Origin: Rikenellaceae bacterium DTU001
GTDB taxonomy: Bacteria; Bacteroidota; Bacteroidia; Bacteroidales; DTU049
Direction: 5' to 3'
DNA: 33,136 bases
Assembly (NCBI GenBank): GCA_001512885.1
Contig: LFSZ01000003.1
Location: 1-33,136 of the forward strand
Shown here: positions 28,795 to 32,755 of the stretch, in pieces
How positions within the stretch are numbered: the first letter of the stretch is position 1
Layout of the letters: every line of letters starts with the position of its first letter
The notes under the pieces: generated by a model
The model's database searches: none
What the model saw: only the letters and a program-made list of their open reading frames with translations
Told to the model about the DNA's origin: nothing
Made by a program: the position numbers and the translations under genes

Positions 28795-29880
28795 ATGAGA
28801 AAGCACATTTTTAACGCAGGTCCAGCAGTTTTACCAGTACCAGTATTAGAAAAGGTATCAAAATCAGTTCAAGATTTAGATGGTATAGGTATGTCAATAC
28901 TTGAAATTTCGCACAGGTCAAAGGAATTCGAGGCTATTATCAATGACGCTATTAATTTAATGAAAGAAATCATGCAAATACCTGAGGGGTATCATATTAT
29001 TTTTGTAGGTGGAGGGGCATCTACTCAGTTTGGTATGGTAGCTATGAATTTTTTGAATAAAAAAGCAGCATACCTAGAGACAGGTAATTGGGCAAAAAAA
29101 GCTATTAAAGAAGCTAAATTATTCGGTGAAGTACAAATAGTAGCTACATCAGCTGATAAAAATTTCACTTATCTACCAAAAAACTTTATTATTCCTACAG
29201 ATGTAGATTATTTCCATATTACTACTAATAATACTATTTATGGTACTGAATTAAAGACTGATTTAAATTCACCAGTTCCATTAGTAGCAGACATGTCATC
29301 AGATATTTGCAGTCGTCCTATAGACATTTCTAAATATTCTCTAATTTATGCTGGAGCTCAAAAAAACATAGGTCCAGCTGGAGTAACTATTGCAATAATT
29401 AAAGATGAGTTCCTAAATCATCAAGTTACTGATAGGATAATTCCTACGATGCTCAACTACAAAACTCATACAGAAAATAATAGTTTATACAATACTCCGC
29501 CAGTCTATGCTATTTATGTAGTCAAAGAAGTAATGAATTGGTTAAAAAATGAAATTGGTGGGTTAGAAAACATGAAGAAAATTAATGAAGAAAAAGCAAA
29601 AATTTTAAATGATTACTTAGATAATAGTAAAATGTTTGTTCCTACCGTACCTGATAAAGAAGATCGTTCTCTAATGAATATTACCTTTGTAATGCAAGAA
29701 CCCTATAAGGAACTAGAAGCTACATTCATAGATTATGCTAAAACCCATGGTATAGTAGGTATTAAAGGTCATAGAAGTGTAGGTGGCTTTAGAGCATCTA
29801 TGTATAATGCATTACCTGTAGACAGTGTTAAAGCACTTGTACAAGCTATGGAAGACTTCGAAAAAACTAATTTGAAATAA
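28795..29880 (+). CDS. serC: 3-phosphoserine/phosphohydroxythreonine transaminase
   Basis: 361 aa, FNAGPAVLPVPVLEK, GGGASTQFGMVAMNFL, YAGAQKNIGPAGVTI. Confidence 0.97.
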   Translation: MRKHIFNAGPAVLPVPVLEKVSKSVQDLDGIGMSILEISHRSKEFEAIINDAINLMKEIMQIPEGYHIIFVGGGASTQFGMVAMNFLNKKAAYLETGNWAKKAIKEAKLFGEVQIVATSADKNFTYLPKNFIIPTDVDYFHITTNNTIYGTELKTDLNSPVPLVADMSSDICSRPIDISKYSLIYAGAQKNIGPAGVTIAIIKDEFLNHQVTDRIIPTMLNYKTHTENNSLYNTPPVYAIYVVKEVMNWLKNEIGGLENMKKINEEKAKILNDYLDNSKMFVPTVPDKEDRSLMNITFVMQEPYKELEATFIDYAKTHGIVGIKGHRSVGGFRASMYNALPVDSVKALVQAMEDFEKTNLK

Positions 29881-29931: not shown

Positions 29932-30855
29932 ATGAATAAAATAGTAGTTTTAACAGAAAAGCCTTTTGCAGCTGACGCAGTCAACAAGATGACCGAAATT
30001 GCAAAAGCTGAAAATTTTGAGATTAAATTTATAGAAAAATATACAAGTAAAGAAGAAGCTTATAAAGGTGTAAAAGAAGCAAATGCTCTTATAGTACGTA
30101 GCGATATAGTAGATAAAGATCTAATCTCGCATGCTCCAAATCTAAAAATAGTAGTAAGAGCTGGAGCTGGCTATGATAATATAGATCTAAATGCTTGCAC
30201 TGAAAGAAATATAGTAGCTATGAATACACCTGGACAAAATTCTAATGCTGTGGCAGAACTAGCATTAGCATTAATGCTTTATATTTCACGAAATCAATTT
30301 GATGGTTCTGTAGGTACTGAACTAAAAGGAAAGACCTTAGGATTACATGGTTTTGGCTATACAGCTAAAGCACTTGCTACCCTTGTTAAAGGCTTTGATA
30401 TGAAAATTTATGGTCATAGAAGATCTAAAAGAGATGACGAATACATTGCTTATAATGTTACAAAAGCTGAGTCAGTAGAGGATTTATATAAAAATTCTCA
30501 ATATGTTTCTTTACATATTCCTGCTAATGATGCTACCATTAAATCTATCAATTATAACTTATTATCATTAATGCCTAAAAATGCTGTCTTAGTAAATACA
30601 GCTAGAAAAGAACTTATTAATGAAGATGATTTATTAAAAGTTTTGGAAGAAAGACCAGATTTTCGCTATGTTTCTGATGTTGCACCTGATTGTAAAAATA
30701 TTATTGCAGAGAAATATCCTGGACGATGTTATTTCACTCCTAAAAAATTAGGTGCTCAAACTAAAGAAGCTAATAATAATGCAGGATTAGCAGCTATAAG
30801 ACAAATAATTGCATTTTTTAAAACAGGAGATACTACTTTTCAGATAAATAAATAA
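29932..30855 (+). CDS. serA: Phosphoglycerate dehydrogenase, Bacteroidetes type
   Basis: 307 aa, VVRAGAGYDNIDLNACTERNIVAMNTPGQNSNAVAELAL, VNTARKELIN, FTPKKLGAQTKEANNNAG; directly downstream of serC. Confidence 0.9.
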   Translation: MNKIVVLTEKPFAADAVNKMTEIAKAENFEIKFIEKYTSKEEAYKGVKEANALIVRSDIVDKDLISHAPNLKIVVRAGAGYDNIDLNACTERNIVAMNTPGQNSNAVAELALALMLYISRNQFDGSVGTELKGKTLGLHGFGYTAKALATLVKGFDMKIYGHRRSKRDDEYIAYNVTKAESVEDLYKNSQYVSLHIPANDATIKSINYNLLSLMPKNAVLVNTARKELINEDDLLKVLEERPDFRYVSDVAPDCKNIIAEKYPGRCYFTPKKLGAQTKEANNNAGLAAIRQIIAFFKTGDTTFQINK

Positions 30856-30898: not shown

Positions 30899-31360
30899 AT
30901 GGAAGAAAATAGACCTATGAACTTCTTCAGATTTGAAGATCTACGCATTTATCACAAAACTTTAGATTTTGTATCTTGGGTTTATAATGCTACAAAACCA
31001 TTTCCAGACTATGCATCCATTCTTAGAAATGACATGGTGGAGGCTGCTCAAGAGATCACTATAAACATAGCAGAAGGATCAGGTAGAAATAAAAATCAAT
31101 TCATTTACTACCTAAAAATGGCGCGTAGTTCTATTAGAAAAAGTGTGGTACTTATTACTATCGCTCAAAAAGAAGGCTTTATTACTGATGATCAACATGA
31201 AGAAGCAAAAAACTTATTAATTGAGATATCTAAAATGCTTGGAGCTCTCATTTCTTCATTACAGCGTAACAAAAAAACTGATAGAAGTGCCTCTGAAGAA
31301 GTAGAAGAAGAAGAGGAGGAGGAGGATTTTGATGAAAATACTGGCAACGAACTAATATAA
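30899..31360 (+). CDS. Four helix bundle protein (S23/23S-rRNA-IVP-type family) with acidic C-terminal tail
   Basis: 153 aa, FRFEDLRIYHKTLDFVSWVY, ITINIAEGSGRNKNQFIYYLKMARSS; tail EEVEEEEEEEDFDEN. Confidence 0.88.
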   Translation: MEENRPMNFFRFEDLRIYHKTLDFVSWVYNATKPFPDYASILRNDMVEAAQEITINIAEGSGRNKNQFIYYLKMARSSIRKSVVLITIAQKEGFITDDQHEEAKNLLIEISKMLGALISSLQRNKKTDRSASEEVEEEEEEEDFDENTGNELI

Positions 31361-31507: not shown

Positions 31508-32755
31508 ATGGCAATTTTTAGACCTTTCAAGGCATTACGCCCACCAAAAGAATTAGCACCAAAAGTAGCTGCTAAACCTTATGATGTTATTAATACTGAA
31601 GAAGCAAGAAAGGAAGCAGAAGGGAATCCATATTCTTTACTTCATATAACTAGAGCAGAAATAGATTTACCCGTTGGTACTGATGAACACGATCCTAGAG
31701 TTTATGAAAAAGCAAAAGAAAATTTTCAAAAATTTATAGAAAATAAATGGTTAATACCCGATGATGATGCATATTTTTATATTTATGCTCAAACTATGTG
31801 GAACAAAACTCAATATGGCATAGTAGGCTGTGCTAGTATAGATGACTATTTTAATAATGTTATAAAAAAGCATGAACTCACTCGTAGAGATAAAGAAGAG
31901 GATAGGATGAAACATGTGAGAGTTACCAATGCTAATGTAGAACCCGTATTTTTTGCTTATAAATCTGTAGCAGAACTTGATAGCTTGATAATGAATTATG
32001 CTAATGAGCACAAACCCGAATATGATTTCATAGCTAATGATGGTGTTGGACATCAATTTTGGGTAATAAAAGAAAAAGAATTAATAGATAAAATACAAAA
32101 ATTATTTGCAGAAATGCCAGCTTTATACGTGGCTGATGGACATCACCGTACAGCAGCAGCAGCATTAGTAGGTAAAGAAAAAAGAGAACAGCATCCTAAC
32201 TATACAGGCGAAGAAGACTTTAACTATTTTATGGCTGTCGTTTTTCCAGATAATCAACTTACAATAATTGATTATAACAGAGTAGTAAAAGATTTGAATG
32301 GTTTGACACCACAAGAATTTTTAGATAAATTATCTGAATATTTTGATATAGAAAATAAGGGCAAAAATGAATACAAACCAAATAAACTTCACAATTTTTC
32401 TATGTATCTAGATGGGAATTGGTATTCATTGACAGCTAAGAAAGGCACTTATAACGATAATGATCCTATTGGAGTACTAGACGTAACTATCTTATCAGAT
32501 TTAGTTTTAAATAATATATTAGGAATAAAGGATCTGAGAACTGATAAAAGAATTGACTTTGTAGGTGGTATTAGGGGGTTAGGAGAGTTAAAACGTAGAG
32601 TTGACAGCGGCGAGATGGCTGTAGCTTTTGCCTTATATCCAGTTTCTATGAAACAACTCATGGATATAGCTGATAGTGGTAATATAATGCCTCCTAAAAC
32701 TACATGGTTTGAACCTAAACTTAGAAGTGGACTTTCTATACATTTATTAGATTAA
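31508..32755 (+). CDS. DUF1015 domain-containing protein
   Basis: 415 aa, RPFKALRPPKELAPKVAAKPYDVINTEEARKEAEGNPYSLLHITRAEIDLP, LYVADGHHRTAAAALV, FAEMPA. Confidence 0.93.
   Translation: MAIFRPFKALRPPKELAPKVAAKPYDVINTEEARKEAEGNPYSLLHITRAEIDLPVGTDEHDPRVYEKAKENFQKFIENKWLIPDDDAYFYIYAQTMWNKTQYGIVGCASIDDYFNNVIKKHELTRRDKEEDRMKHVRVTNANVEPVFFAYKSVAELDSLIMNYANEHKPEYDFIANDGVGHQFWVIKEKELIDKIQKLFAEMPALYVADGHHRTAAAALVGKEKREQHPNYTGEEDFNYFMAVVFPDNQLTIIDYNRVVKDLNGLTPQEFLDKLSEYFDIENKGKNEYKPNKLHNFSMYLDGNWYSLTAKKGTYNDNDPIGVLDVTILSDLVLNNILGIKDLRTDKRIDFVGGIRGLGELKRRVDSGEMAVAFALYPVSMKQLMDIADSGNIMPPKTTWFEPKLRSGLSIHLLD

Follow-up and report, generated by a model that had tools for sequence, protein, structure and literature searches.

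The window, the whole 33,136-nucleotide stretch of contig LFSZ01000003.1 from Rikenellaceae bacterium DTU001 analysed here, carries two genes of serine synthesis followed by a small gene and a gene for a DUF1015 protein:

28795–29880, + strand: serC, phosphoserine aminotransferase (NF003764, 471 bits, above cut-off, 1.5e-141)
29932–30855, + strand: serA, short 3-phosphoglycerate dehydrogenase of 307 aa (PF02826/PF00389; TIGR01327 at 6e-50, below cut-off)
30899–31360, + strand: four-helix-bundle / 23S rRNA IVP gene (PF05635, 6.8e-19; TIGR02436, 4.8e-18)
31508–32755, + strand: DUF1015 / COG4198 protein of 415 aa with an ATG start (PF06245)

Open reading frames and profile matches bear out the collinear, one-strand arrangement given in a preliminary description of this DNA, and the full-length DUF1015 frame lies at exactly the coordinates claimed there, beginning 147 bases past the IVP gene. 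The 307-aa serA product has no ACT domain. The small gene at 30899–31360 is not a serine gene: its product is a TIGR02436/23S_rRNA_IVP four-helix bundle without a known serine link. Of 80 related loci, eight likewise have a member of this family ahead of DUF1015, in most cases lodged behind serA.

The DUF1015 protein matches PF06245 over residues 5–327 (profile positions 2–325 of 325; 402 bits against a cut-off of 25.8; 1.6e-120), a domain profile search found no other domain in it, and an NCBIfam search returned no match. It is encoded by the single DUF1015 gene of its genome (117 contigs, 1.9 Mb, 97.8% complete), and its database relatives are mainly from Bacteroidales, with identities of up to 72%. 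Pfam still assigns no function to PF06245, and we found none for DUF1015, PF06245 or COG4198 in the literature searched, which had subscription journals and preprints outside its scope. A 2025 survey names 'DU1015' among the ParB-CTPase-fold representatives chosen for binding assays (PMC12704722), and the accessible part of its text reports neither nucleotide binding nor a function for the family. The traits of a canonical ParB (helix–turn–helix, C-terminal dimerisation domain, neighbouring parA) are absent from our protein, which has PF06245 alone and serC and serA for neighbours.

The arrangement recurs well beyond this contig. Among 80 named loci, serC and/or serA lies within ~6 kb of DUF1015 in 53 and the order serC>serA>(IVP)>DUF1015 is kept in 48, with several of the loci that lack serA/serC ending at contig breaks. 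A panel of 158 genomes from the phylum includes 84 that carry serC as well as DUF1015; in 67 of them no more than 6 kb separates the two genes, which share a strand in 65 cases. The three genes also run head to tail in Listeria monocytogenes and Enterococcus raffinosus, and in Enterococcus serA and DUF1015 share one overlapping base. DUF1015 is a conserved member of this operon, and no phosphatase is conserved there.

COG4198 genes have been reported behind glycine riboswitches in metagenome fragments assigned to Firmicutes (PMC2211319). Our Rfam scans found no riboswitch in the window and, among 12 related loci, only one near DUF1015: the Thiodictyon locus has a cobalamin riboswitch, which lies on the opposite strand. 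With no glycine riboswitch in these scans, the published link was not reproduced. The Thiodictyon gene (L125, 4977–6266) lies near cobD, bluB and that cobalamin riboswitch, a context that suggests a cobamide-linked kinase branch. In Monoglobus, a member 27% identical to ours (L126, 3107–4429) precedes genes for homoserine dehydrogenase, homoserine kinase (thrB) and aspartate kinase. DUF1015 is present as well in four phage-named records (MT837575, MT837563, OR848132 and OR846716), which probably represent bacterial DNA in phage preparations.

Predicted fold and active-site motifs

An AF2 model built from 25 family members reached a mean pLDDT of 95.1 and a pTM of 0.90, with all residues at 70 or above. 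When it was compared with 350,542 PDB chains by Foldseek, nine matches were returned at E<=1e-3, and every one was a free serine kinase, namely TkSerK in several complexes, the Pyrococcus furiosus orthologue 1vk1 and SbnI, with TM scores of 0.54–0.64 by target length. The next-best match had an E of 0.03 and a Foldseek probability of 0.09, and neither ParB nor Srx structures were among the significant matches. The preliminary description had linked the DGHHR motif of the protein to ParB/Srx-type nucleotide-binding proteins, including SerK. The SerK part of that link is upheld, as the predicted fold matches SerK and SbnI and nothing else significantly; ParB/Srx alone is too broad, because the match is specific to free serine kinases.

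The resemblance is faint in sequence. Neither the protein itself (phmmer) nor a 25-sequence profile (hmmsearch) matched any PDB chain at E<=10, and by hhalign the DUF1015 alignment scored 42.4 against two SerK sequences (TkSerK and the P. furiosus protein, letter-for-letter identical to 1vk1) versus 15.3 +/- 2.6 (maximum 25.3) for 300 column-shuffled alignments and 16.0 for the reversed alignment. At sequence level the kinship shows by profile–profile comparison only, and we regard DUF1015 as a remote relative of SerK rather than its orthologue. The authors of the 2016 SerK study stated that clear-cut SerK homologues are absent from bacteria (PMC5120207). The hhalign alignment runs from DGHHR to PKTT, two of three motifs that DUF1015 has in common with SerK:

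31871–31876, + strand: H122-E123, counterpart of SerK H29-E30 (alignment, spacing, invariance)
32135–32149, + strand: DGHHR, residues 210–214, identical to SerK 69–73 (alignment, motif positions)
32690–32725, + strand: PPKTTWFEPKLR, residues 395–406, in which PKTT aligns with SerK 220–223 (hhalign, motif positions)

The central motif had been singled out earlier within LYVADGHHRTAAAALV; that peptide is present, and only the DNA span quoted for it (32129–32168) was slightly off. DGHHR is invariant in 25 family members collected by HMM, a set gathered independently of the motif, so a chance match can be set aside. The other two SerK motifs, HE and PKTT, are kept across the family as well. HE is invariant in 105 DUF1015 members and in six distant ones, the distance from its glutamate to the next conserved proline is identical in DUF1015 and SerK (E+23, gap-free), and the HE motifs of the two families superpose in hhalign once a DUF1015-specific insert is removed, a step that presupposes where the insert lies. 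When six members drawn from Bacteroidota, Bacillota, Pseudomonadota and Actinomycetota (~23–57% identity) are aligned, only 40 positions stay invariant, and H122, E123, A209-DGHHR-214, P395, K397 and T399 are invariant across these four phyla. With the SerK-like residues among so few invariant positions, they appear to be ones that DUF1015 cannot lose. Conservation of ADGHHR and TWFEPKLR in loci L033–L112 is partly a product of selection, because both peptides served as search patterns; the HMM- and tblastn-collected sets are free of this bias.

SerK E30 is the residue mutated in several SerK crystal structures with bound substrates, as their titles indicate, and E123 would be its catalytic equivalent, with DGHHR and the C-terminal PKTT as putative phosphate- or nucleotide-binding elements. 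One residue counts against a SerK-like reading: SerK H225 is replaced by F401, though the neighbouring PKTT is kept. On balance we consider it quite probable that DUF1015 belongs to the SerK-fold class of serine/phosphoserine enzymes, as a divergent and larger relative of archaeal SerK and of SbnI that would bind free serine or O-phospho-L-serine and transfer phosphate.

In some or all members, the same fold could act on an amino acid close to serine, for instance threonine or homoserine. The surroundings of the Monoglobus gene (homoserine and aspartate kinase genes, homoserine dehydrogenase) and of the Thiodictyon gene (cobD, bluB, cobalamin riboswitch) would fit such a substrate; these members are only 27–38% identical to the window protein, and the branch found in Bacteroidota, Listeria and Enterococcus has serC and serA as its neighbours, which makes another substrate very improbable in our view.

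SerB distribution and the phosphoserine-to-serine step

The absence of serB from the window, remarked on in the preliminary description, extends to the whole 97.8%-complete genome, where TIGR00338 finds nothing over its cut-off. Two weak TIGR00338 matches were rejected as SerB, being fragments of a P-type ATPase and of KdsC, and PF12710 gave nothing at E<=1 in this genome, whereas it was matched in 14 of 14 control genomes. The search for phosphatases in the genome proceeded family by family, with PF00702 and PF08282 outside its scope. It returned a phosphoglycerate mutase-like and a SixA-like protein under PF00300 and YihX-like and GmhB-like proteins under PF13419, identities read from sequence. 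The open reading frame of the SixA-like histidine phosphatase shares 11 bases with the end of glyA (contig C88; L114, 1285–1782 and 1772–3049), and the protein is a possible alternative phosphoserine phosphatase. The YihX-like HAD, GmhB, KdsC and IMPase-like proteins of this genome, as identified from their sequences, could likewise act on phosphoserine.

These candidates give some footing to the idea that DUF1015 is a regulator that binds a nucleotide or phosphoserine, with serine made by an unrecognised phosphatase such as the SixA-like protein by glyA or the YihX-like HAD; the 2025 survey also describes other ParB-fold proteins that bind nucleotides as switches (PMC12704722). We judge a purely regulatory role improbable, as the closest structures are enzymes rather than switches, the catalytic glutamate of SerK is invariant in DUF1015, and it is DUF1015, not any phosphatase, that is the conserved operon member.

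The SerB gap is common in the order. Among 198 Bacteroidales genomes, DUF1015 is present in 192 and SerC in 194, and only 44 encode a SerB that passes its cut-off; a canonical SerB is missing from 146 of the 189 genomes with both serC and DUF1015, about three quarters, and kept in 43. A canonical serB in most genomes with the cluster, which the preliminary description would have counted against its proposal, is not what these genomes show. One complete L. monocytogenes chromosome also has no SerB over the cut-off. Serine is generally left out of the defined media in which this species is grown. Our observations in Bacteroidales and L. monocytogenes agree with a gap found in many genomes and published for 450 gut genomes, described as diverse Firmicutes, that encode SerA and SerC yet lack any recognised phosphoserine phosphatase (PMC9026213).

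In the phylum panel, SerB occurs in 0 of 67 genomes with serC-linked DUF1015 versus 8 of 25 other serC+ genomes; seven of these eight belong to one family (f5). The SerB+ cases are not independent, and for this reason we discount the Fisher test across the phylum (p of 1.2e-5). Within Bacteroidales the two genes do not exclude each other, and the idea that a serB gene disrupts the DUF1015–serC linkage was rejected there: linkage is kept in 21 of 31 genomes with SerB and 69 of 93 without (p=0.49; genomes whose coordinates were listed). Families f11, f14, f16 and f29 of the panel include many genomes with DUF1015 and SerB and without an NF003764-type SerC, and these may use another aminotransferase.

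A location in a serine gene cluster, together with the fold and active-site signature of a free serine kinase, leads us to think that DUF1015 probably swaps phosphate between serine and phosphoserine. From the computed fold, shared motifs, serC–serA operon in two phyla and SerB absence we infer the substrate, the residue roles and the direction. In the pathway that we favour for this genome, DUF1015 would follow SerA and SerC and stand in for the missing SerB, carrying out the third step from phosphoserine to serine, with a nucleotide (AMP/ADP), phosphate (yielding PPi) or water as candidate phosphate acceptor. That DUF1015 is a SerK-fold serine/phosphoserine phosphotransferase likely to perform the last step of serine synthesis where SerB is missing strikes us as about evenly balanced. 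The broader proposal, that among Bacteroidales, Listeria, Enterococcus and many others it is mainly DUF1015 that turns phosphoserine into serine and hands the phosphate to an acceptor, is tentative, and we hold it well short of even confidence.

The operon, the missing SerB and the near-universality of the gene favour the biosynthetic direction, of which we are less sure than of the enzyme class. The preliminary description had suggested a role in the last step or in regulation of serine synthesis, assuming that SerK is reversible. The suggestion itself is supported; the main text of the SerK paper makes no statement of reversibility, so the last step stays something that we infer. For TkSerK, only the kinase direction has been reported, using ADP and not ATP or PPi, and its authors favour a role in serine assimilation, with a further tie to cysteine synthesis. 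By general bioenergetics, Sep + AMP -> Ser + ADP is uphill, and an acceptor other than AMP, such as Pi or water, would lift much of this objection. The 43 of 189 Bacteroidales genomes that hold SerB as well as serC and DUF1015, with linkage unchanged among those whose coordinates were listed, count against the biosynthetic direction.

Several of these points suit a serine kinase, which would phosphorylate serine and either feed SerC and SerA run backwards to 3-phosphoglycerate or supply phosphoserine. Serine phosphorylation is the demonstrated direction of SerK, in Desulfurococcales the SerK genes have serA and aminotransferase genes as neighbours, a SerB homologue is also present in T. kodakarensis itself, many Bacteroidota carry both DUF1015 and SerB, and COG4198 has been placed behind glycine riboswitches in the Firmicutes-assigned fragments mentioned above (PMC2211319). 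However, a kinase would leave the phosphoserine-to-serine step unfilled in roughly three quarters of serC+ DUF1015+ Bacteroidales and in the L. monocytogenes chromosome, a gap of the kind seen in the 450 gut genomes (PMC9026213); we regard this role as possible, on the unlikely side.

A gene that nearly every Bacteroidales genome carries, and that had no assigned function, gains a specific and testable enzyme hypothesis, and bacteria would possess a large SerK-like family, remote in sequence and matching in fold and active-site motifs. If DUF1015 does convert phosphoserine to serine and passes the phosphate on, it would define a widespread variant of serine synthesis that keeps the phosphate on an acceptor rather than losing it to hydrolysis. 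The literature searched held no description of the specific SerK link, of the catalytic motifs that the two families have in common or of the Bacteroidales SerB gap.

Relation to known systems

The best Foldseek matches are SerK, the ADP-dependent enzyme TK0378 of Thermococcus kodakarensis (PDB 5x0b/5x0e), and P. furiosus 1vk1. SerK and DUF1015 have in common HE with its catalytic glutamate, DGHHR and a C-terminal PKTT, and in some archaea SerK likewise lies among serA and aminotransferase genes. DUF1015 is longer (415 aa versus 242), with ~85 residues added at the N-terminus and a longer insert separating HE from DGHHR; it keeps the PKTT of the SerK C-terminal SPKTTRH but not H225. Unlike SerK of T. 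kodakarensis, which coexists with a SerB homologue, DUF1015 in Bacteroidales usually occurs in genomes without SerB.

SbnI, the free serine kinase of Staphylococcus (PDB 5uje/5ujd/6nr6), has the same fold (Foldseek 2.8e-6 to 8.7e-6), and the 2025 survey describes it as binding ATP through a ParB-fold module (PMC12704722); it works in staphyloferrin B siderophore synthesis rather than from a serA–serC operon. ParB-CTPase-fold proteins and sulfiredoxin are distant members of the same fold class. SerB, the HAD-type phosphoserine phosphatase, has an unrelated fold and performs the step that we propose for DUF1015.
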